Assembly: GCA_937141935.1 (NCBI GenBank)
Contig: CAKZQS010000045.1
Span: 62,001 to 126,000 of the forward strand
Length of the DNA: 64,000 nt
Direction: 5' to 3'
Source: an uncultured Ectothiorhodospiraceae bacterium
GTDB taxonomy: Bacteria > Pseudomonadota > Gammaproteobacteria > Nevskiales > Oceanococcaceae
A model generated the notes under the pieces. It had not been told where the DNA came from and did not search any database. It worked only from the letters and a program-made list of their open reading frames with translations. Made by a program: the position numbers and the translations under genes. Numbering within the stretch: the stretch's first letter is position 1; each line of letters begins with the position of its first letter. Shown here piece by piece: positions 39,575 to 59,800 of the stretch.

Positions 39575-40888
39575 ATGTTGAAGTCGATTCGGCTGATAAA
39601 TTTTAAAAGTTACCGAGCAGCCACTCTGGAGTTGGCTCCTCTTACCTTCCTAATTGGCCCCAATGCATCGGGCAAAAGCAACGCGCTGGAGGCAATTCGA
39701 CTGCTGAATTGGCTCGCCAAGGGCAAGCGGCTTGACGACATCGCAAAGGACATTCAAGGAGGGGATACTGTTGTCCGTGGACTGGCTCGAGACCTGTTCC
39801 GCGATTCCGATCAACCAATGCAGCTCGAGGCGCACTTAAGGGATGCACCGGACGGTTGGTGCGACTTTTCGATAGGTATTTCCCAATTCTCTGAAAGGCT
39901 AGTAGTCTCGAGTGAGCAAATCACTCAGCCCAGTCAGAATGTTCCGCTCTACCAAATTGACAGCGAGCCCAAGCAACATACTGACGAGATCAGTGTTGCT
40001 TACAACAATTTTCGTCGTGGCCGGAACAAGCCCCACATTCCTTGCTCCAATAGACAAGCCGTTTTCTATCAACTGGAAACTCCAGGTCGTTTTCAAAAGG
40101 CCCACGCCGAGACTCAAATTATAATTCCGAAAGTCACGCGCTCGCTGCGAGAAACACTTAGGGGCATAGTTTTCTTAGATCCCCGACCAGCCCAAATGAG
40201 AGACTACGTCTACGCCGGCGATAAGGAGCTAAACGAGTCAGGCAATAACCTTTCAGCCGTGCTTTACCAGCTTTGTCGCGACGACAGCAGTAAAAAGGAC
40301 CTACTCGCGTTTATAAGATCACTTCCAGAGCAAGACATTACTGATATTCAGTTCATTGAAACTGAGCGCAATGATGTGATGGTGCGAATCGAGGAGACTT
40401 TCGGCGACAGGAAATGTCTCGTAGATGCTCCTCTGCTCTCAGACGGCACACTGAGGGTCTTGGCCGTTGGAGCAGCACTTATGTCTGCGCCCGAAGGATC
40501 TCTTATAGTCATCGAAGAGGTAGACAACGGCGTTCATCCAAGTCGCGCGGACGTATTGGTGAAGCAGATTCGCGACGTGGCTTCCGCCCGGAAGCTACGA
40601 GTTATGCTTACCTCGCACAATCCAGCGTTGCTAGATGCCCTGCCGAACACTAGCTTGGGAGATGTCCTTTGTTGCTACCGGGATCCCGACGTCGGTGATA
40701 GCCGTCTCGTGCGTCTTGGAGACCTGGAGCGTTACAGTGAGCTAGTAGCTCAAGGTCCCTTAGGGCAGTTGATGACTCGAAAAGTCCTTGAGCGATTCCT
40801 GAAAGACAAGAGCACAACTGAGGAAAGGCGGGCGCTCGCGAAGGAGTGGCTGAGGTCGTTAAAGAAAGAGGCGGTATCTGGAGGATGA
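39575..40888 (+). CDS. AAA_21/ABC-type ATPase of a putative defence pair
   Basis: 437 residues. Begins MLKSIRLINFKSYR, typical of SMC/RecF/OLD-type ATPases. Walker A IGPNASGKSN at about 27-36, ABC-like signature LLSDGTLRVLAVGAAL at about 287-302, Walker B LIVIEEVDNGVHPS at about 310-323 and H-switch LTSHNPALLDAL near 346. The middle (about 90-230) is the variable insertion seen in AAA15/AAA21 proteins of defence systems. No C-terminal Toprim domain follows, unlike OLD nucleases. Codons such as ATA, TTA and AGA are frequent, unlike the rest of the window, so it is a recent import. Its stop overlaps the start of the PIN-like gene (ATGA). I infer that it senses a trigger and controls that nuclease. 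Confidence 0.85.
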   Translation: MLKSIRLINFKSYRAATLELAPLTFLIGPNASGKSNALEAIRLLNWLAKGKRLDDIAKDIQGGDTVVRGLARDLFRDSDQPMQLEAHLRDAPDGWCDFSIGISQFSERLVVSSEQITQPSQNVPLYQIDSEPKQHTDEISVAYNNFRRGRNKPHIPCSNRQAVFYQLETPGRFQKAHAETQIIIPKVTRSLRETLRGIVFLDPRPAQMRDYVYAGDKELNESGNNLSAVLYQLCRDDSSKKDLLAFIRSLPEQDITDIQFIETERNDVMVRIEETFGDRKCLVDAPLLSDGTLRVLAVGAALMSAPEGSLIVIEEVDNGVHPSRADVLVKQIRDVASARKLRVMLTSHNPALLDALPNTSLGDVLCCYRDPDVGDSRLVRLGDLERYSELVAQGPLGQLMTRKVLERFLKDKSTTEERRALAKEWLRSLKKEAVSGG

Positions 40889-41346
40889 CTTCGATTTGTC
40901 TGATTGATACGTCCGTATTCGTCGAGCTTCTAAAAGTTCCAGTCAAGTCTACCCGTCACATAGAGGCAGTTGACTTGCTGGAACAAAAAATAATTGGCTC
41001 GGAACAAATCTTTCTTCCTATGGCCACAGTTATAGAGACTGGAAATCACATAGGTCAAAATGGAGATGGCCGGCAAAGACGACATTGTGCAGAATTATTT
41101 GTGCAGCAGGTGCGAGCAGCACTGAAAGGAGAAAGTCCCTTCAAACCAGTTAGCTTTTTGAAAGCTGAAGCATTCGAAGCTTGGCTGGAGGAGTTCTCTG
41201 AGCACGCCACCCGAGGTGGAGGGCTCGGCGATCTATCTATCATCCACGATTGGCGTCGGCTTTGCGCTCAGAACCATGGTCGCCGTGTTTACATTTGGAG
41301 CTTCGATCAATATTTGACAGCTTACGACCGAGCCCCATTAGTCTGA
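40885..41346 (+). CDS. PIN-like nuclease, putative effector of the ATPase
   Basis: 153 residues; ATG at 40885 lies 1 base after TCTGGAGG and inside the ATPase stop. The N-terminal strand ICLIDTSVFVELLK has the PIN first-acid motif DTS (Asp about 7); the second acid is probably Glu in ATVIETGNHI (about 50). The third site is in GGGLGDLSIIHDW (about 115-121) and the fourth in IWSFDQYLTAYD (about 138). The order D-E-D-D matches the metal-dependent RNase site of PIN domains such as VapC toxins. No VapB-like antitoxin accompanies it; the ATPase is the only partner. The longer reading from 40846 would overlap the ATPase by 43 bases and lacks a ribosome binding site. Foreign codon use as in its partner. 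Confidence 0.7.
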   Translation: MTSICLIDTSVFVELLKVPVKSTRHIEAVDLLEQKIIGSEQIFLPMATVIETGNHIGQNGDGRQRRHCAELFVQQVRAALKGESPFKPVSFLKAEAFEAWLEEFSEHATRGGGLGDLSIIHDWRRLCAQNHGRRVYIWSFDQYLTAYDRAPLV

Positions 41347-50941: not shown

Positions 50942-51940
50942 ATGACCTCCACACTTGCCGAGTCGCCGCCCATGCTGCAGGCCTCCAACCGCTGGGCCGT
51001 CGCCACGACGGCCTGCCTCTGTGCGCTGTTGAGCATCTCGGCCTACTGGTTGGCCGATTTTGAGTTCGGCGGGGGCCGGGCGATGGCGCCGCTGTTCTTG
51101 TGGGGCGGCGCCGCGCTGGCTCTGCTCGCGCTGGGCGTGACCATGCGCTGGGTCGCCGCGGGCGTGGGCGGCACCGTGCTGGCGCTGATCTGCGGCGGCT
51201 TGCTGCTGACCCGCATCATCGCGCTCTTTGTCGGCGGCAGCCTGCAAAACCCCGACGCCAGCGTTTTTCACGCCATCTACGCCTACCTGCCGCTGCTGAT
51301 GATCATCACCGTGGCGGTGGTGCCCTACCCGCTGAACATCGCGGTGTCCGGCGTGCTGTGGATGGCCGTGTCGGTCGCCATCACCGTGGCCGTGGGCCCG
51401 CTGCTGCAGGCGTCCACGCCGCGGCAGGGCCTGATGCCGCTGATCCAGCTGGCCTGGGTGGGCTACCCGGCTTATTGGATCATGCTGGGCTTTGCCTCGG
51501 TCTGGGGCGAGCATGCCCGCCGCCACCTGCTGCGCCGCGCCGATGCCGAGCACCAGGCCCGGGTGCACGCGGAGTTTGAGGCGCGCGAGCTGCACAGGAT
51601 CATCGACAACACCAGCGTCGGCGTGGCCGTGCTGGCCTCGGATGGCGCCTGGCTGACAATGAACCCACGCATCTGCGACATCACCGGCTACAGCGAGCCC
51701 GAACTGCGCGAGCGCACCTTCCAGGCCATCACCCACCCGGACGACCTGGATCAGGACCTGCGCCTGGCGCAGGAGGTGATGTCGCGCAAGATCGAGCGCT
51801 ACAGCCTGAACAAGCGCTACATCCGCAAGGACGGCCAGATCGTCTACGTGCGCCTGTCGGTGGGCCGCATCCCCGGTCGCGTGCTCTCCGAGGACCGCTT
51901 CGTGTCGATCATCGAAGAACTCGGCCGCGGCGACAGCTAA
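50942..51940 (+). CDS. membrane protein with a C-terminal PAS domain and no output domain
   Basis: 332 residues. Six or so hydrophobic segments (about residues 20-180; for example TACLCALLSISAYWLADFEF and LPLLMIITVAVVPYPLNIAV) form a MASE2-like sensor. A short linker helix (RRADAEHQARVHAEFEAREL) leads into a PAS fold (RIIDNTSVGVAVLASDGAWL, GYSEPELRERTFQAITHPDD, RYIRKDGQIVYVRLSV) that ends at the stop. No kinase, GGDEF or EAL domain follows, so it must signal through a partner or be a shortened relic of a diguanylate cyclase. Divergent from the dehydrogenase gene. Confidence 0.8.
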   Translation: MTSTLAESPPMLQASNRWAVATTACLCALLSISAYWLADFEFGGGRAMAPLFLWGGAALALLALGVTMRWVAAGVGGTVLALICGGLLLTRIIALFVGGSLQNPDASVFHAIYAYLPLLMIITVAVVPYPLNIAVSGVLWMAVSVAITVAVGPLLQASTPRQGLMPLIQLAWVGYPAYWIMLGFASVWGEHARRHLLRRADAEHQARVHAEFEARELHRIIDNTSVGVAVLASDGAWLTMNPRICDITGYSEPELRERTFQAITHPDDLDQDLRLAQEVMSRKIERYSLNKRYIRKDGQIVYVRLSVGRIPGRVLSEDRFVSIIEELGRGDS

Positions 51941-52215
51941 AGCGCGAACCCCGCCGCGGCGCGGGCACGGCATCGCCCAGCGGGCCTGAGCGGCCGCGGC
52001 CTGCCGGGGCACGCGCCTGCGCCCCGGGCTTGCGACGCGGCCTTGCGCCCTGGGCATGAAGAAGCGGCTTGCGGCATCAGCCTGCGACGCGGGCTGCTCG
52101 CTCCGGCCGCCGCGCTGGGCGCGCGGCTGGGTCTTGGGATTTGCACCAATCGCCCGCGGTTGTGGCCCGATGAGGGCGCCCGGGCCTGCCGCGCCCCGGC
52201 GCCCGGCGCCGCGCC

Positions 52216-54495
52216 TCAGGCCTGCTGGCGCCACTCCGCCGGGTTCGTCTCCTGACCCTGCCTGATGCCCGCGTCGGCGCCCAGCCGGCAGGCCGAACCC
52301 AGGCTGAAGTGAAAGGCGGGGTCGCGGCCGGCACTGGCCCAGATGCGCCCGCCCAGCGCCTCCAGCCGCCGCTGCAGCGGGTCCAGCGCACGCCGGGCCT
52401 CGGGCAGCCCATGGCGGAACGCGGAGCCGGCCTGCGCCACCCAGCTCGAGGTCCGCGCCGGCGCCCGCGCGGCGATGCCATGGCTGTGGCGGCTGACCGT
52501 AAAGATCAGCTCGCCCTGTGCCTGCGACCAGCTCAGCCGCAGCTCGGCCCCGGCGTCATCGCCGCAGATCAGGGCGGCGCCCACCACGTCGCGCAGGGTC
52601 TCGTAAATCAGGGTCGCCGGGCAGACCAGCAGCGGCAAGTCGGCCGCGCCGCTCAGGGTGGCGCCGGCCGCGCTCAGGCTGCGCGCCAGCGCCTGCTCCA
52701 CCTGCGCCAGCACCCGGCCCAGGTCCACGGCGCCGGGCTGGGCCTCGCCGGGGAACACGCAGCGGTCGGCATGCAGCGCCTCCGACTGCGACTCCACCCG
52801 GTGCAGGCCGAGCTGCAGCGGCTGGGTCAGGCTTTCCAGCGCCACGTCCTCGGCCCGCTGCCCGATCACGCGCCCCAACCGGCGCAGCGTGGGCAGCAGC
52901 GTATCCACGCTGCGCAGGAATTCGGTCAGTCGGGCATTGGCTGACTGCAGCTCGCGGCTGCGCCGCAGCAGGGTGTCCTGCACCTCGTCGCGCGCCACCA
53001 TTTCGCCCAGCGCCATGCGATGCCGCTCGCGGCTGGCCTGCCACAGCACCAGCACCAGCGTCAGCAGGGCCGACAGCGTCAGCCCGAACAGCAGCACCAG
53101 CGAGGGCACCAGCGTGCCAAAGCGGCGCAGCAGCTCGGGGGCCAGCCACATCTCCAGCGTGAACAAGCCATCGGCCACCGGCAGCGCCACGCGCTGCGTA
53201 CCGCCGGTCACGCTGGCCTCGACGCGGGTGTCGGCGGCCAGCGTCAGGCCGTCGTGGCGCAGCCGCCAGCCAAAGGGCGCCTCGGCCAGGTTCTCCTGCA
53301 GCCAGCTGCGCAGGTCGAAAACAAAGATCAGCCGCGCCGGCTCGTTGCGGTGCCACTGCAGCGGGTAGACGATGCCCCAGCCGCCGGAGAGCGCCAGCGG
53401 CATCAGCTGCTGCGGCTGCGGCGGCAGGCGCAGCAGTGACAGCAGCTCCTGCGCGCGCACCGTGTCGCGGGCCGGCTCGGCCAGTTGCCGCTCGCGGCTG
53501 ACCACATAGATCGCCCGCAACTGCGGCATGTCCAGCAGGATCTGCTGGGCATCGCGGCGCCAGGCGCCGGAGGCATGCTCGGGGTCGGCCAGGTGCATGG
53601 CCAGGCGCTCAAAGCCGTCGAGGTCGCGGCGCAGGTTGCTTTCCAGCGTCTGCACGCCCAGCTGCGCCTGCATCCGCGCCAGCTCGCGCAGGCGATCCTG
53701 CTGCTGGCCCTCCAGCGTATTCCAGGCCCAAAGCGCCAAGACCGTGCTCAGCAGGCCCACCGGCGCGGCCACACGCAGCACGCCCAGGCGCCAGGGGCGC
53801 TCGCGTGCGGCGATGCCGACCAGGCCGCCGCCCAATGCGCAAAAGCCTAGCGCGGTGTGCAGCGCCATGCGGGTATAGCTGCCCCAGCCATAGGCCACCT
53901 GGGTGCCGAGCACATAACCCGAGGCGGCAATCAGGCCCAGGCAGCAGATCAGCAGACCCAGCGCAGGCAACAGCAGCACCCGGCCCGCCTGCGGCAGGCG
54001 ATACAGCTGCAGCGCCAGCCCGGCGAGAACGAAGCACACCGCGGTGTTCGGCGCCATGCGGCCGGGGTGCGAGGTCTCGACCGTCAGGTAAGCCCGCATC
54101 CAGAACTCGTCAATGCCCAGTTGCCAACCCGTGGCGTACTGCAGCAGCGTCAGCCCGCAACTGGCGAAGATGGCAAAGCCCAGCAGGCTGCCCAGGCGCG
54201 TACGGCCGGTGGCCAGGCAGAACAAGGCCAGACCGCTGCCAATAAAGCCCAACGCGGTGTTGAACTGCATGGGCACAAAGTCCGGGTGCAGCTGCATCAG
54301 CTGCGTGGTCTGGGTGTGCCAGCCCACGACAACCACGGCGCCCAGCAGCACCAGGGCCACCGCGGTGACGACCAGCAACGCATCACCGATGCGCGGCTGC
54401 AAAACGGCATAGCTCCTCGTGGCCAGGCCGTTCTCCACGGCTTCGCCATCGCCCGCGGCCGGAACGGGCGCAAGAGCGGGGGACAGCCCGCGCAT
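52216..54495 (-). CDS. membrane sensor with degenerate histidine-kinase core
   Basis: 759 residues. Around six to eight N-terminal membrane segments with HPGRMAPNTAVCFVLAGLAL come first, then a periplasmic CHASE-like region (about 255-425) between membrane helices, a further membrane segment near 435-460, a coiled linker (ARDEVQDTLLRRSRELQSAN) and a C-terminal region laid out like phytochrome-type kinases. The HisKA phospho-acceptor His is not visible. The ATPase boxes are lost: N box reads DVVGAALICG, G1 reads VSRHSHGI rather than DNGxG, and G2 lacks GxGxG. RRLEALGGRIWASAG retains the fold ending. It is probably a pseudokinase sensor. It follows the REC-GAF gene on the same strand. Confidence 0.75.
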   Translation of the reverse strand: MRGLSPALAPVPAAGDGEAVENGLATRSYAVLQPRIGDALLVVTAVALVLLGAVVVVGWHTQTTQLMQLHPDFVPMQFNTALGFIGSGLALFCLATGRTRLGSLLGFAIFASCGLTLLQYATGWQLGIDEFWMRAYLTVETSHPGRMAPNTAVCFVLAGLALQLYRLPQAGRVLLLPALGLLICCLGLIAASGYVLGTQVAYGWGSYTRMALHTALGFCALGGGLVGIAARERPWRLGVLRVAAPVGLLSTVLALWAWNTLEGQQQDRLRELARMQAQLGVQTLESNLRRDLDGFERLAMHLADPEHASGAWRRDAQQILLDMPQLRAIYVVSRERQLAEPARDTVRAQELLSLLRLPPQPQQLMPLALSGGWGIVYPLQWHRNEPARLIFVFDLRSWLQENLAEAPFGWRLRHDGLTLAADTRVEASVTGGTQRVALPVADGLFTLEMWLAPELLRRFGTLVPSLVLLFGLTLSALLTLVLVLWQASRERHRMALGEMVARDEVQDTLLRRSRELQSANARLTEFLRSVDTLLPTLRRLGRVIGQRAEDVALESLTQPLQLGLHRVESQSEALHADRCVFPGEAQPGAVDLGRVLAQVEQALARSLSAAGATLSGAADLPLLVCPATLIYETLRDVVGAALICGDDAGAELRLSWSQAQGELIFTVSRHSHGIAARAPARTSSWVAQAGSAFRHGLPEARRALDPLQRRLEALGGRIWASAGRDPAFHFSLGSACRLGADAGIRQGQETNPAEWRQQA

Positions 54496-54587
54496 CGCTT
54501 GATCCTCTCAGTCTTGGGCGCGATTAGGCCGAGGCGACCGTGAACGAAATGTGAGCGGGCGCGCAGGCGCCTGCCAAAGCGCCGGCG

Positions 54588-55691
54588 CTAGAGGAAGTCC
54601 AGGCTGCTCGCGCCGCTGGCCACCTGCAGCTGCACCACCAACTCGCCCTGCGCGGCGACGAATTCCTGCAGCGCCCGGTGCTCGTCGATGCGCAGGCGGC
54701 TGCCACGCCGCCACAGCAGGTGGCAGGCGCCGGCGATGCCGGCCGCATGCGCCTCGATACGCTGCATCTGCGCCCGGTAGGTGGATTCGGGGTCCAGGGC
54801 CGAGTCTTGCTCGTGGACGGCATCGGTGACCTGTGCCGAGCAGATGTCGGCGAAACAGCGCAGCAGATGCAGATCGGCGCCGCTCCAAGGGCGCGGCCGG
54901 GTGTCGATGGCGCAAAAGGAGGCCACCGCCTCCTTGCCGCCGGCATAAACCGGCTGGCCGGCATAGGCGATCACGCCCAGGTCGGCAATGGCCTGGTTGT
55001 GCTGCAGCACGGCGTGCTCGCGGGCGTCCTCGACCACCAGCGCATCCCGCGAGGCCACCACCCACTGGCAAAAGGAATGGGACAGCGGCGTCTCGCGCTG
55101 CTCCGACCAGGGCGGACCCAGGCCCACGAAGCTGGAGAAAAACTGCCGCCGGTCGTCCACGGTGGACAGCAGGGCCACCGGCACCCTGAGCACCCGCGCC
55201 GCCATCGCCGTCAGCAGGTCCAGAAAGGCGCTGTCCTTGACCTCGGTCAGCCCGCTCTGCACCACGGCCTGCAAGCGGGCCGGGGCGGCCACGACATCGG
55301 TGGGCGCCAGGCGTATCACGGCGGGGCTGACGGTCATTTCGGCCATCGCGTCAATCAGCTTGTCGATCTGCGCGTCCGGCGGCAGCACGGCCGCCGCGCC
55401 CAGCGCCGCCATCGGCTCAGACAGGTCGCCGCCCGCGATGACCAGCACCGGGATCGCGGCCAGCTCGGGATTCACGCGCAAATCGCGCAGCGCCGTACCC
55501 ACGCCGGCGCCGCCCATCGTGGCGTCCAGCAGGATCAGCTGCGGCTGCTCGCGGTGCACGCGCAGCGCCACCTGCGCGCCGTCCGCGGTGCGCGAGATGC
55601 CCCAGCCGCGGTCGCGCATTGCCGCCACCAGCTCGCGCATGCGCGGCCAATCGCCATAGCCCACGAAGATCAGTGGTTGGTTCTCAAGCAT
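54588..55691 (-). CDS. response-regulator-like protein with REC and GAF domains
   Basis: 367 residues. Residues 1-125 form a receiver-like fold (LIFVGYGDWPRMRELVAAMR, LILLDATMGG with a candidate phospho-Asp near 55, VLVIAGGDLSEPM). The acidic pair usually found at the first strand is absent, so phosphorylation is uncertain. Residues about 145-290 are a GAF domain (ALLSTVDDRRQFFSSFVGL, TPLSHSFCQWVVASRDALVV, DLGVIAYAGQPVY) of the type that precedes phytochrome-like kinases. A C-terminal helix follows, with no output domain. It lies 92 bases upstream of the degenerate kinase and probably works with it. Confidence 0.78.
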   Translation of the reverse strand: MLENQPLIFVGYGDWPRMRELVAAMRDRGWGISRTADGAQVALRVHREQPQLILLDATMGGAGVGTALRDLRVNPELAAIPVLVIAGGDLSEPMAALGAAAVLPPDAQIDKLIDAMAEMTVSPAVIRLAPTDVVAAPARLQAVVQSGLTEVKDSAFLDLLTAMAARVLRVPVALLSTVDDRRQFFSSFVGLGPPWSEQRETPLSHSFCQWVVASRDALVVEDAREHAVLQHNQAIADLGVIAYAGQPVYAGGKEAVASFCAIDTRPRPWSGADLHLLRCFADICSAQVTDAVHEQDSALDPESTYRAQMQRIEAHAAGIAGACHLLWRRGSRLRIDEHRALQEFVAAQGELVVQLQVASGASSLDFL

Positions 55692-55821
55692 CGTGCGGAT
55701 CGCCCCTTTCGCCCTGCCGTCCCTGTGGCATGCGGGCGCTGGCTTAAACTATGCCGGTTTCCCCCCGCTCTCGCACCGCTGCGCCCACCCCGCGGCACGG
55801 CCTGCCACGCCCCGAACGCCC

Positions 55822-56421
55822 ATGACGGCCAAGCGCCACCCCCTGCACGAAGACCTGCTCGCCTTTTTCAGCACCACGGTGCTGGTGTCGCTGGGGGTCC
55901 ACCTGCTCAGCAGTGTGGGCCTGATTACCGGCGGGCTGGCCGGCATGGCGCTGTTGCTGGCGGAAATCAGCCCCTGGGGCTTTGGGCTGTGTTTTGCCCT
56001 GCTGAACCTGCCCTTTTATGTGCTGGCGCTGCTGGAGCTGGGCTGGCGCTTCACGCTGAACACCATCATCTGCGTGCTGCTGGTCGCCACGCTCAGCGAG
56101 TGGATCCACCTGCTGGTTGCGCTGGACACGGTGCAGCCCGCCTTCGCCGCCATTGCCGGCGGCGTGCTGATCGGCTTTGGCATGCTGATCGTGTTTCGCC
56201 ACCAGGCCAGCCTGGGCGGCGTGGGCATCCTGGCCTACTACCTGCAAAACCGCTTTGGCTGGCGGGCGGGCTATGTGCAGCTTGCCGTGGACCTGACCAT
56301 CCTCGCCGGCGGGGCCGCCGTGCTGCCGCTGCCGCTGTTGGCGATGAGCGTGCTGGGCGCCGTGGTGCTGAATGCGGTGCTGGCCGTCAACCACCGCCCC
56401 GGGCGCTATCGGGTGGCCTGA
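55822..56421 (+). CDS. YitT family membrane protein
   Basis: 199 residues with five membrane segments. Family motifs LISSVGLITGG-like LSSVGLITGGLAGMALLLAE, FALLNLPFYVLALLELGWRF, and FRHQASLGGVGILAYYLQNR are clear. Function unknown; sometimes suggested to be a transporter. Divergent from the REC-GAF gene. A TAAACT -10-like element lies near 55745 without a clear -35. Confidence 0.85.
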   Translation: MTAKRHPLHEDLLAFFSTTVLVSLGVHLLSSVGLITGGLAGMALLLAEISPWGFGLCFALLNLPFYVLALLELGWRFTLNTIICVLLVATLSEWIHLLVALDTVQPAFAAIAGGVLIGFGMLIVFRHQASLGGVGILAYYLQNRFGWRAGYVQLAVDLTILAGGAAVLPLPLLAMSVLGAVVLNAVLAVNHRPGRYRVA

Positions 56422-56433
56422 GGCCCCGGCCCT

Positions 56434-57279
56434 TCAGCCCGCCGCGGCGTCCAGCGTGCGCGCGGCCGCTGCATCCAGCGCGGCCAGCGCCAGCCACAGG
56501 CCCGCCTGCTCCAGCCGCCACACGGCGTAGGCGCCCAGCGGCGCCCCCTTTCGCAGACCCCAGCGCCCCTGCGCGCACCACAGCCGCGGCAGCGGCGGCG
56601 TGGCGGCGCCCAGCCGCGGCGACAGCGCCTTGTAGGCTGCCTCCTTGGCCACCCACAGCGCCAACGCCGGCGCCGCGCGCAGGGCCGCGCCATCCGCCGG
56701 GTGGGCGATGCGCGCACCCAGCCCCGGCCGCACCGCGCGCGCGCAGAACTCGATATCGACCCCCAGCTCGGCGGGCGGCATGCACGCCCCTGCGGCTTCG
56801 GCAGCAGCCGCCGAGGTCGCGGCGAGCAGCCAGCAGGCCTGCCGCCCCTGGCCGGTGTGGCTCAGCGACAGGCGCGCCCCCGGCCGGCCCGACACCCGGC
56901 CGAGCCCCTGGCCGGACCCCGGGCCGGACCCATCGAGTGCCGCCGGCCCCGGCAGCCCAAGCTGCACGCCCAGCGCGGCCAGCAGCGCCGCGCGCGGCTG
57001 GGCGGTGGCCTGGGCGGTGGCCTGCGTGGTGGCCTGGCCGCAGGACCAATGCAGGTGGCAGGACAACGCTGCGGAACGGGGATGCTCCGGGGTCTGCTCC
57101 GGGGTCTGCTCCGGGGAACGTTGCGACGGGGTCAATGTCGGCAGCGGCAGCGTTGCGGGCAGACCCTCACCTAACCAGGGCAGCCAGACCGGGCTGGCCT
57201 CTGCGCGGCGGGCCGGTTCGCCAGCGCTCGCAAGGGGCTGCGTTGGCGGGCCGGCGGGTGTCGGTCCTGCGGCATTCAT
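56434..57279 (-). CDS. 4'-phosphopantetheinyl transferase superfamily protein
   Basis: 281 residues. The transferase signature is present: LGVDIEFCARAVRP (magnesium acids about 172-174) and LWVAKEAAYKALSP (about 208-221), preceded by RLSLSHTGQ and GARIAHPAD. It would attach phosphopantetheine to carrier proteins of fatty-acid, polyketide or aryl polyene synthesis. The N-terminal ~120 residues are repetitive (PEQTPEQTPE; TTQATAQATAQ) and derive from DNA repeats at 57078-57116 and 57000-57040. It is divergent from a chorismatase, suggesting a shared aromatic/polyene pathway. Confidence 0.82.
   Translation of the reverse strand: MNAAGPTPAGPPTQPLASAGEPARRAEASPVWLPWLGEGLPATLPLPTLTPSQRSPEQTPEQTPEHPRSAALSCHLHWSCGQATTQATAQATAQPRAALLAALGVQLGLPGPAALDGSGPGSGQGLGRVSGRPGARLSLSHTGQGRQACWLLAATSAAAAEAAGACMPPAELGVDIEFCARAVRPGLGARIAHPADGAALRAAPALALWVAKEAAYKALSPRLGAATPPLPRLWCAQGRWGLRKGAPLGAYAVWRLEQAGLWLALAALDAAAARTLDAAAG
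57078..57116. repeat. 12-base tandem repeat in the phosphopantetheinyl transferase gene
   Basis: Two perfect GGGGTCTGCTCC units (57089-57100, 57101-57112) with partial copies on both sides encode the PEQT repeats of the transferase N-terminus. Confidence 0.85.
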
Positions 57280-57478
57280 CGCGCCAGCATAGTGGCCGCG
57301 CCCCACACGCGCGTAGTGCCGGGCTGGCGGGGTTGAGGGGCGAGCGACGGCGGGCTGCGGCGGCGGGCTAGCGGCGGCGGGTGCAGCGGCCCCGGCGCGG
57401 CAGTGGCCGAAACCCGGCCGCCTCTCCGCAGCCGGTAGACTAGCGCGCCCCGCCCGCCATCCCGCCCCGCCGCCTTCG

Positions 57479-58432
57479 ATGTTCCGCGTACGCCATTGCC
57501 ACGGCCCGGCGCCGGCCACGCTGCCCGAGCGGGCGCTGGCGCTTGTCAGCGCCGGCGCGGATTCGGCCGATGGCGGCAGCGGCACCTTGGGCGACGCGCC
57601 TGGCGCGTGGCGGCTGCCGCTGCGCGGCCTGGGCGCGCCCATGCACGAGTTGTGGCTGGCGGACGAACCGGTGAGCCGCGGCATGGAGGACACGCTGAGC
57701 TGGTCGGCCAGCGGCGAGGTGATCATGGCGCAGCTGCGGCTGGAGCCGCCTGCCGGCGGGCTCGCGCAGGCGACCGAAGCCGCCTACCGTCGCCTCTATG
57801 GCTGGCTGGCCCAATGGGGCTGGGCGCAGCCCTGGCGCATCTGGCATTACTTCCCCGACATCACGCGGCGCAGCGCCGCCGGCGAGCGCTACCACGACTT
57901 CGTGGCCGGCCGCGAACGCGCCTTCCGCGCCTTGGGCCTGTGCAGCGAGCAATACCCGGCCGCCACGGCCATCGGCAGCCACGGCACGCCCTTCGTGCTG
58001 CAGCTCATCGCCGGGCGGGCCCGCAGCCAGCCGCTGGAGAACCCGCGCCAGGTCAGCGCCTATCACTACCCGCGCCAGTACGCCCCGGCGGGCCCCGCCT
58101 TCGCCCGCGCGCGGCGGGTGCCGCAAGCCGGCGGCGGCGCGCAGATGCTGATCTCGGGCACGGCCAGCATCGTGGGCCACCACTCGCGCCACGCCGGCGA
58201 CATCGCGGCGCAACTGGGGGAGACCTGCGCCAACCTCGACGCGCTGCTCGGGGGCCGCGAGGCCAGCGCGCAAGCCCTGCGCGTGTACCTGCGTGATGCC
58301 CGCCAGGCGGATGCGATACGCCCCCATCTGCGGCAGGCCTTCGGCGAGCACGCGCCGCTGTGGCTGCTGGAGGGCACGATCTGCCGCGACGAGCTGCTGG
58401 TGGAAGTCGACGGCGTCTGGGGCGGCCGCTAG
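57479..58432 (+). CDS. FkbO/Hyg5/XanB2-family chorismatase
   Basis: 317 residues. The conserved late block ISGTASIVGHHSRHAGD, then VYLRDARQADAI and LEGTICRDELLVEVDG is the signature of the chorismatase family formerly called pteridine-dependent deoxygenases. Members convert chorismate to hydroxybenzoates or dihydrodihydroxybenzoate; Xanthomonas XanB2 supplies 3-hydroxybenzoate for the pigment xanthomonadin and 4-hydroxybenzoate for ubiquinone. IWHYFPDITRRSAAGERYHD is also typical. Which product is made cannot be read by eye. No other pigment genes are in the window apart from the divergent phosphopantetheinyl transferase. Confidence 0.87.
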   Translation: MFRVRHCHGPAPATLPERALALVSAGADSADGGSGTLGDAPGAWRLPLRGLGAPMHELWLADEPVSRGMEDTLSWSASGEVIMAQLRLEPPAGGLAQATEAAYRRLYGWLAQWGWAQPWRIWHYFPDITRRSAAGERYHDFVAGRERAFRALGLCSEQYPAATAIGSHGTPFVLQLIAGRARSQPLENPRQVSAYHYPRQYAPAGPAFARARRVPQAGGGAQMLISGTASIVGHHSRHAGDIAAQLGETCANLDALLGGREASAQALRVYLRDARQADAIRPHLRQAFGEHAPLWLLEGTICRDELLVEVDGVWGGR

Positions 58433-58433
58433 C

Positions 58434-59675
58434 TCAGGTCAGGTCGTCCTCGAGCAGGTCCAGCACCACAGGCGAGGTGCGCAGCATCGAGAAGATGCCA
58501 TCTCTGCGCTGCCGCAGCGGCCGCGCCGCCACGAAGCATCGCCATGCGGCATACAAGGCCAGCAGCCCCCAGGTCAGCAGGAAGTGCAGCGCCAGCCCCG
58601 GCGGGCCCAGCGCCTGCATCAGCGCACCGCCGAGCAGCGGCCCGGCCACGGCGCCCATGCCGTGCAGCATCAGCAGCGTCGAGGCGGCACTGACGATCTC
58701 GTCCGGGCGCAGGAAGTCATTGGTCAGCGATACGCACACCGGGTACACGCAAAAGCCCGCGGCGCCCAGGCCGGCCAGCGCCGGCAGCAGCCACACCAGC
58801 GCGGCCGAACCCTGCAGCAGCAGGCCCAGGGCCAGCCCCGACAGCGCCGCCAGCAGGGTCAGGCCGAACACCACATAGCGGCGGTCAAAGCGGTCGGACA
58901 TATGCCCCACCGGAATCTGCGCCAGCGCGCCGGCGAGGATGATGGTGATCATCACCTGCGCCACCGCCGCCACCGGCTTGCCCTGCTGCTGCACCATCAG
59001 CGGCACCAGGCCCCAGACGGCGGCGGTGGCCACGCCGGACAACGCCGCGCCCACGGCGCCCAGTGGCGCGATGGCCAGCAGCGCGCGTACCGGGTACAGC
59101 GAAGGCCCGCTGATCAGCGGCTGCGGCAGCCGCGTCAGTACCACCGGCGACTGCGCCAGCGAGATCAGAATCGAGGCCAGCACGAAGAGCGTGAAGCCGC
59201 TGATCGGCGCCACCAGGAACAACGCCTGCGCGGCGGCCAGCGCCATGAAGTTCAGGAACATATAGGCCGAGAACACCCGGCCGCGCTGCTCGCGCACCGC
59301 GGCCACGCTGAGCCAGCCCTCCAGAATCGAATACAGGCCGATCATCGCCACGCCGAACACCACGCGTAGCAGCGCCCAGACCCAGGGCGAGATGAACAGC
59401 AGGTGCAACAGCGACACGGTGGCCGCGATGCCGCCAAAAAAGGCGAAGCCGCGCACATGCCCGACCCGCGCGATGATCCGCGGCACGATCCAGGTGCCGA
59501 CCAGATAGCCGGCGAAATAGCAGGCCGTGATCAGGCCGATGACCGAGGTCGAAAAGCCCTCCAGCCCGCCGCGCAGCGACAGCAGGGTATTCAAGATGCC
59601 CACGCCGCCGAGCAGCAGCACGGCGCCGACGAGCAGGGCGGAAACGGGGAAGAGCGCGGTCAGCATGGCGCGCAT
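58434..59675 (-). CDS. MFS transporter
   Basis: 413 residues from the ATG at 59675 (59666 is an alternative). Twelve membrane segments in two halves; MFS loop motifs are seen as GTWIVPRIIARVGHVRGFAF (loop 2-3) and GHMSDRFDRRYVVFGL (loop 8-9). The sequence fits the drug/metabolite exporter type with a long GLYSILEGWLSVAAVREQRG motif as in YcaD-like transporters. Substrate unknown. Converges on the chorismatase gene with 1 base between the stop codons. Confidence 0.87.
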   Translation of the reverse strand: MRAMLTALFPVSALLVGAVLLLGGVGILNTLLSLRGGLEGFSTSVIGLITACYFAGYLVGTWIVPRIIARVGHVRGFAFFGGIAATVSLLHLLFISPWVWALLRVVFGVAMIGLYSILEGWLSVAAVREQRGRVFSAYMFLNFMALAAAQALFLVAPISGFTLFVLASILISLAQSPVVLTRLPQPLISGPSLYPVRALLAIAPLGAVGAALSGVATAAVWGLVPLMVQQQGKPVAAVAQVMITIILAGALAQIPVGHMSDRFDRRYVVFGLTLLAALSGLALGLLLQGSAALVWLLPALAGLGAAGFCVYPVCVSLTNDFLRPDEIVSAASTLLMLHGMGAVAGPLLGGALMQALGPPGLALHFLLTWGLLALYAAWRCFVAARPLRQRRDGIFSMLRTSPVVLDLLEDDLT

Positions 59676-59718
59676 CTTAGGCCGAGCGGGCTCCGCTTCA
59701 CAGGGGGAGCATGACGGT

Positions 59719-59746
59719 TTGCAGGGGGGGACAAATGGCTTAGCAT
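59719..59746 (+). promoter_or_regulatory. possible promoter of the DUF3015 gene
   Basis: TTGCAG (59719-59724) and TAGCAT (59741-59746) with a 16-base spacer lie 54 bases before the ATG. Plausible but not strong. Confidence 0.35.
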
Positions 59747-59800
59747 CGACCCGCCGCCTTCGCGGCATTTATCCACTTCGAAGGGATTGGGGGTTTATCG

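Follow-up and report, generated by a model that had tools for sequence, protein, structure and literature searches.

The window analysed here, a stretch of 64,000 nucleotides from contig CAKZQS010000045.1 of an uncultured Ectothiorhodospiraceae bacterium, contains two adjacent genes that are read in the same direction on the reverse strand. The upstream gene (54588..55691, read from 55691 to 54588) is an open reading frame (ORF) for P0002, a protein of 367 residues that we describe, with the help of Pfam/NCBIfam matches, as a pseudo-receiver-GAF protein without a recognised output domain. An intergenic gap of 92 bases (54496..54587, reverse strand) separates it from the downstream ORF (52216..54495, read from 54495 to 52216), which encodes P0001, a membrane pseudo-histidine kinase of 759 residues. 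The P0001 frame is open, with zero stops across its 759 codons, and its GC content at the three codon positions (0.749/0.501/0.905) is like that of most window genes with Pfam matches. Third-position GC is 0.899 for P0002 and lies between 0.88 and 0.95 in nine of the ten window genes with Pfam matches, the tenth, an AAA gene, having 0.537. The coding signature is unbroken in the transmitter half of P0001 (third-position GC 0.928). Codon scores are 0.58-0.66 for P0001-P0003 and below 0 for four antisense ORFs, three over the P0001/P0002 genes and one over GSDH. No sigma-70-like promoter was found in 51900-56000, where 0.1 would be expected by chance, so that this promoter and terminator scan is uninformative.

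Neither Pfam nor NCBIfam matches P0001 at E<=1. HATPase_c was found at 41 places in its own genome, none of them on P0001, and a sequence search of the PDB gave three weak matches (best E 0.027), with no kinase among them. A profile built from 24 canonical phytochrome-type transmitters does match P0001, over residues 498-680 and with the SHDL of the H-box in a gap; it scores 23.9 bits for the C-terminal half and 20.6 bits for the whole protein. The relative L042 (740 residues, from genome G005 of the same order) is 41% identical to P0001 over residues 40-225 and 26% over residues 452-642, and L096 (779 residues, from an alphaproteobacterial metagenome-assembled genome, MAG) is a collinear relative with CHASE (PF03924), HisKA and HATPase_c domains by Pfam. 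CHASE PF03924 itself has no Pfam match in P0001. Judged by its likeness to L042 and L096 and by the transmitter profile match, P0001 is a descendant of a transmembrane (TM)-Cache sensor kinase.

The features of P0001, all on the reverse strand, are as follows. A module of six TM helices and the start of a seventh that leads into the sensor (residues 34-262, 53710..54396), delimited by identity to L042 and by AlphaFold helices, is followed by a Cache/CHASE-like sensor domain between TM helices (residues 258-463, 53107..53724; VIA-align of the model) and by the last TM helix, which runs on into the signalling helix (residues 463-487, 53035..53109; AlphaFold helix 463-547). The transmitter consists of a pseudo-DHp helical hairpin (residues 505-579, 52759..52983), in which the H-box with its phospho-acceptor His is missing near residues 526-527, and a pseudo-CA domain of the Bergerat type without ATP-binding motifs (residues 586-738, 52282..52740), placed by alignment, AlphaFold and a match to VanSA. 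The residue alignment locates the former N-box, DVVGAALI, at residues 636-643 (52567..52590) and the former G1 box, RHSHG, at residues 669-673 (52477..52491). The original prediction had seen in P0001 the layout of a phytochrome-like kinase. This holds for the transmitter, through the profile match, whereas the sensor half is of the multi-TM/Cache type; a phytochrome photosensory module, that is, a bilin-binding PAS-GAF-PHY arrangement, was rejected, there being no PAS, GAF or PHY match at E<=1. A GRM..TA motif at residues 145-152 of the TM module is invariant or nearly so across the family. TM modules with this motif precede histidine kinases, hybrid kinases and GGDEF proteins in many phyla (loci L045-L124), and no Pfam model above its cut-off covers the module in the ten proteins scanned.

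The loss of catalytic residues in P0001 is well supported by the residue alignment. We selected 16 signature positions from the columns conserved at >=80% in transmitters: Ser/His/Pro of the H-box, Asn/Asn/Lys of N, Asp/Asn/Gly/Gly of G1, Phe/Phe/Arg of F and the three Gly of G2. P0001 keeps one of the 16, Gly673. Three alignments show a gap where its H-box would be, so the phospho-acceptor His of an active kinase is absent, and within the N, G1, F and G2 ATP-binding boxes of an active HisKA/HATPase_c kinase Gly673 is all that is retained. The Asn of the N-box is replaced by Ala640, the Asp of G1 by Arg669 and the first Gly of G1 by Ser671; the G2 glycines correspond to Glu699, Arg701 and Ala703, although no part of the alignment is weaker than this placing, past a lid that is itself uncertain. 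With 15 of the 16 signature residues gone, the alignment bears out the view of P0001 as a degenerate histidine kinase that has lost its N, G1 and G2 boxes and its His, and also the proposal that the former N-box is to be sought in GAALICG and the former G1 box in VSRHSHGI. On the same alignment we rejected a hidden active kinase overlooked by the profiles. The core is largely kept: hydrophobic residues occupy 35 of 47 core columns versus 32 of 143 non-core columns (a gap being scored as non-hydrophobic; Fisher P=2e-10).

How unusual this loss is can be judged from the relatives of P0001. A first scan of contigs with P0001 alone found no relative. Matches at E<=1e-3 were present in 26 of 100 genomes, its own included, 18 of them (again with its own) through the N-terminal TM module and 8 through the transmitter half only. 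In a collection that contains a single genome for each species, a motif of the TM module fitted 206 stretches, of which 179 were confirmed as relatives; the best 80 of these were kept. A transmitter was detected by profile (E<=1e-3) in 70 of these best 80, and the N-box Asn and G1 Asp are present in all 70; for 13 of them the match is by construction, as they were used in building the profile after being chosen by their H-box pattern, and where a relative had several matched domains these were merged in the residue count. The phospho-acceptor His is found in 69 of the 70, the exception, L051, having a domain of the HisKA_3 type. The ten relatives without a transmitter match are five with a GGDEF motif, three that are cut by the end of their contig and two short ones. 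Among a further 35 ORF rows, ten have all six residues checked (two of these rows represent a single gene), one has no more than the His end of its transmitter inside the locus, and 24 have no match; of these 24, five are complete with GGDEF and the other 19 extend beyond the locus. P0001 is thus the sole case among the relatives examined with a detectable transmitter yet no motifs. The nearest full-length relatives, L042 and L096, are active-looking kinases with the His, N, G1 and G2 residues present. Because 70 of 70 transmitter-bearing relatives retain the N-box Asn and the G1 Asp, the motif loss in P0001 looks derived.

The AlphaFold model of P0001 (mean pLDDT 76.2, pTM 0.54) shows TM helices, a Cache-like domain and then a DHp hairpin that leads into a CA fold. 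Its input was an alignment of 22 rows that contained 21 relatives, mostly canonical transmitters. VIA-align comparisons, in which rows within 1 Z count as ties, placed the modelled transmitter close to HprS (Z 16.0, root-mean-square deviation (rmsd) 5.7 A, 229 residues), the RpBphP2 kinase (Z 15.4, rmsd 14.1 A, 179 residues, with the domains displaced) and DivL 4q20 (Z 15.1, rmsd 5.2 A, 214 residues), and the CA domain close to that of VanSA (Z 14.8, rmsd 2.9 A, 127 residues). The sensor resembles the sensor domains of KinD, Mlp24, TlpA and AHK4 (Z 14-15, rmsd about 3 A), for example KinD with Z 14.9 (3.2 A) and the cytokinin receptor AHK4 with Z 14.2 (2.9 A), so that the model has a Cache fold flanked by TM helices, as in CHASE/Cache-type sensors. 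The Foldseek list for the model is headed by phytochromes and other kinases. A structure prediction of the C-terminal half had been suggested as a check, and the predicted structure agrees with a degenerate transmitter in that it matches DHp-CA structures, DivL included. Because the model leans on mostly canonical kinases, it indicates compatibility with a DHp-CA fold and stops short of proof. Taken with the profile match, the modelled fold and the missing catalytic residues place P0001 among the pseudo-histidine kinases.

P0002 begins with a pseudo-receiver (residues 1-121, 55329..55691, reverse strand), assigned by AlphaFold, Foldseek and phmmer. By sequence the receiver is weak (Response_reg at 0.0036, below its cut-off; phmmer 3.4e-5 to 3t6k), and its model is good, with a pLDDT of 88-96 per block for residues 11-120. 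In Foldseek the TMt of the P0002 model is 0.92 to DivK 1mb3 and 0.89 to the second match, FrzS 2i6f, with 3t6k also among the closest. Compared with nine receivers, P0002 has Tyr12-Gly13 at the acidic pair, Ala86 for Thr and Pro105 for Lys. Asp56 is the only one of the five key residues that is kept, which is not what a phosphorylatable receiver has, and P0002 thus joins a receiver fold to the loss of key phosphotransfer residues. A GAF domain follows (residues 156-287, 54831..55226, reverse strand; Pfam PF01590, E=1.2e-12), whose part of the model is poor because the alignment had no GAF row. The neighbour of P0001 is therefore, as had been proposed, a REC protein with one acid and a GAF domain and without a recognised output; that both proteins are phosphorylation-independent is well supported by their sequences.

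Towards its C-terminus P0002 has a predicted helical hairpin for which no family was found (residues 301-359, 54615..54791, reverse strand; low-confidence AlphaFold helices with pLDDT about 54-64), and window 54591-54800 has no Pfam match at E<=1. A HisKA or Hpt domain in this tail was rejected, given this lack of a match and helices that are only weakly predicted. We also rejected P0002 as a broken GAF kinase or cyclase, as a BLASTP alignment with one GAF kinase ends within the GAF domain. Unlike BLASTP, the genome search aligned that GAF kinase over residues 117-366 of P0002, and P0002 may therefore have originated from a GAF kinase or GGDEF protein by loss of its output. Six hand-picked GAF relatives (331-398 residues) are GAF-GGDEF proteins in four cases and GAF-HisKA-HATPase_c proteins in two, the kinase just mentioned being one of the latter, and no relative of P0001 was found in the 8-9 kb around their genes (phmmer E<=1, ORFs of >=110 residues).

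Conservation of the pair had been set beforehand as a test, and this test failed: the samples examined contained no second case, and thus no conserved operon. Among the matches listed for the 100-genome sample, none outside the own genome spans the whole of either protein. P0002 has matches at E<=1e-3 in 81 of the 100 genomes, its own included, and those listed are mostly to GAF or REC alone, a few spanning more (13-175, 117-366). Many genomes match both proteins partially, as is to be expected of domains as widespread as GAF, REC and kinase. At E<=1e-12, P0001 has matches in 10 of 85 genomes of the order (own included). Of 369 genomes of the class, at least 16 match P0001 at 1e-25 and at least 12 match P0002 at 1e-16, counts that include the own genome and are based on the best two (P0001) and best five (P0002) candidates per genome, weaker relatives being uncounted; the own genome is alone in being on both lists. 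We also searched the DNA around 83 relative loci, namely those of the 80 relatives (up to about 5 kb per side, shorter at contig ends), L042 and both pieces of an apparent single split relative in G010. Ten ORFs there match the P0002 receiver (E<=1e-3) and none matches its GAF part at that threshold, and the surrounding DNA examined for L042 and L096 contains no GAF protein like P0002. The genus and family, as sampled by three other genomes, contain no orthologue of P0001. In G001, the only other genome of the genus that was compared, MFS, chorismatase-like and YitT genes have the same order as in the window, different genes lie beside the conserved YitT gene, P0001 has no match and P0002 has partial matches only. 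As no orthologue or second adjacent pair was found in these genomes and loci, selection on the pair is not measurable.

With moderate confidence, we interpret P0001 as a lineage-specific pseudo-histidine kinase that probably acts as a docking receptor in the manner of DivL, its neighbour P0002 being a possible partner. Its domain identity, the loss of its catalytic residues and its open coding frame are supported by the sequence, and its fold is predicted to be retained. The Cache-like domain and TM bundle would sense a signal and relay it to a transmitter of DHp-CA shape. As this transmitter would be capable neither of ordinary ATP binding nor of phosphorylation on the usual His, the signal would be passed on through its conformation and through docking to other proteins, which is how DivL works. 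We infer that P0001 folds in the cell, dimerises and binds a partner to produce an output. The most economical partner would be P0002, whose pseudo-receiver could dock on the pseudo-DHp like a normal receiver and whose GAF domain would add a second, cytoplasmic input; the final output might then pass through a third protein, such as an active kinase of the genome. That the receiver adjoining P0001 has separately lost its DD, Thr and Lys speaks for this interpretation.

Several observations weigh against it. P0001 retains only 16 of the 41 columns conserved at >=80% in transmitters, so that some structural positions have changed too. The lid region (residues 673-699) is mostly below pLDDT 50, and an alignment rich in canonical kinases may have forced the kinase fold on the model. 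Neither dead protein has an orthologue, and no adjacent pair occurs, in the genomes and loci examined, and the interaction between P0001 and P0002 is itself inferred. The proposal of a split signalling pair thus keeps its co-directional genes and its gap of 92 bases, and lacks recurrence in the other genomes and loci examined; its stronger form, a complete pseudo-two-component pair in which a whole-transmitter docking module serves a cognate pseudo-receiver-GAF protein with no phosphate between them, strikes us as unlikely. Somewhat less doubtful is that P0001 is a true pseudokinase that acts without P0002, for example by pairing or competing with an active kinase, P0002 being an unrelated neighbour. 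Its own genome contains candidates: a 1417-residue frame on C11 has a related TM module (39% over residues 44-249), HATPase_c is found in a C11 frame of equal length (1417 residues), and a 642-residue frame on C4 with HATPase_c is 30% identical over residues 435-570. The lack of a second pair among the genomes and loci examined fits this alternative as well. Against it, chance would hardly be expected to put side by side two unrelated, co-directional genes that have both lost their two-component chemistry.

The same lack of orthologues in the genus and family sampled, and the different genes beside YitT in G001, would also be expected if P0001, and perhaps P0002, were decaying genes without a present function, bound to disappear after their transmitter had lost its function in this lineage, and so would the absence of motifs from every box and the change in 25 of the 41 conserved columns. 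Under neutral loss of the motifs across the whole transmitter half, however, 7-13 stops are expected by formula at 1.33 hits per codon, which is a lower bound. Neutral simulations, which ignore indels, gave a mean of 7.4 stops and no stop-free run out of 150 without mutation bias, and a mean of 3.2 stops with a 3-fold GC bias; under this strong bias, nine of 150 runs did remain stop-free. P0001 has a normal codon signature, no stop in 759 codons and a largely kept hydrophobic core. Since neutral drift should usually leave stops, the open frame and the retained core argue for a maintained protein, and we regard a decaying gene, which a GC-rich genome could harbour, as rather unlikely. Much the least probable is that the P0001 transmitter is still an enzyme that makes some unorthodox use of ATP or a different nucleotide: a CA-like fold is predicted to remain, but P0001 has other residues in place of the Asn, Asp and glycines of the N, G1 and G2 boxes, and it lacks the H-box.

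Our preferred interpretation of P0001 as a docking receptor takes DivL as its model. DivL is described as a Caulobacter pseudo-histidine kinase whose transmitter is a sensor or docking platform without kinase or phosphatase activity (PMC4211667). The two proteins share a histidine kinase fold, predicted in the case of P0001, without the phospho-acceptor His, DivL signals by binding a response regulator (PMC4211667), and the P0001 model matches few structures better than DivL 4q20. DivL differs in having PAS sensors and a Tyr for the His and in binding phosphorylated DivK (PMC4211667), whereas P0001 has a TM/Cache sensor, no H-box and a candidate partner for which no phosphorylation is expected. 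As its ATP-binding motifs are replaced too, P0001 departs further in sequence than DivL does. The TM-CHASE/Cache-HisKA-HATPase_c kinases L042 and L096 have an architecture collinear with that of P0001, but in them the His, N, G1 and G2 residues are present and HisKA and HATPase_c are recognised. RcsD, a membrane protein with a kinase-like but inactive transmitter, is similar to P0001 in this respect and differs in being described as an Hpt phosphotransfer protein; Pfam matched no Hpt domain in P0001 or P0002. For P0002, the closest comparison is FrzS, which is presented as a receiver fold without phosphorylation chemistry in PMC12632262, where a pseudo-receiver is defined as a receiver fold without the key phosphotransfer residues. 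FrzS, which acts in motility and for which dimerisation through a C-terminal coiled coil is predicted, differs from P0002, which has a GAF domain and keeps its Asp. According to the same source, HisKA domains without the phospho-His make up 722 of 76,471 (0.9% of the sample), the 20 atypical regulators presented there are orphans with two exceptions, and the switching of bacterial pseudo-receivers remains a mystery (PMC12632262). Among the matches listed by our searches of open-licence papers there was no report of a pseudo-kinase that adjoins a pseudo-receiver.

On the 5' side the pair is flanked by a YitT-family gene, a 4'-phosphopantetheinyl transferase (PPTase)-like gene, a chorismatase-like gene and an MFS transporter gene. 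The region 56434-59768 contains chorismatase FkbO/Hyg5-like, 4'-phosphopantetheinyl transferase-like and MFS genes, which may be linked to an aryl-polyene (xanthomonadin-like) pigment. On the 3' side, a TM-PAS protein of 332 residues (50942-51940, forward strand), with a hydrophobic N-terminal half and a PAS domain, is encoded convergently to P0001; Pfam/NCBIfam found no output domain in it, which makes it the third signalling protein at the locus for which none was found. Genomes G001-G003 match mainly its PAS part, inside larger frames. Elsewhere in the window, the genes at 39575-40888 and 40846-41346 (both on the forward strand) encode an AAA ATPase and a PIN-like protein that form the candidate defence pair PDC-M07A/PDC-M07B (PADLOC E of 1.9e-213 and 2.3e-52). 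The ATPase gene was probably acquired, given its divergent third-position GC (0.537 versus 0.88-0.95 in nine other window genes). In G001, the flank beside YitT (L140, G001:C9:40000-54000) contains ORFs that, read by eye, resemble photosynthesis genes such as acsF, bchM, bchL and bchH, and reaction-centre genes lie about 37 kb beyond them. A search for Photo_RC was positive for G001 and negative for G000, G002, G003, G005 and G010; phototrophy would thus differ between G001 and the genome of the window and have been lost or gained within one genus. A phototrophic Oceanococcus MAG of the Nevskiales has been described (PMC9872600), and our guess is that G001 and the window belong near it.

Pseudo-kinases and pseudo-receivers were already known, and what differs here is the completeness of the loss and the pairing. 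We regard P0001 as a real and uncommon find of a recognised kind, to which conservation lends no support. It also serves as a warning, as the Pfam and NCBIfam profiles are blind to it. A dead kinase and a dead receiver as neighbours may offer a small natural system in which phosphate-free signalling between both folds can be studied.

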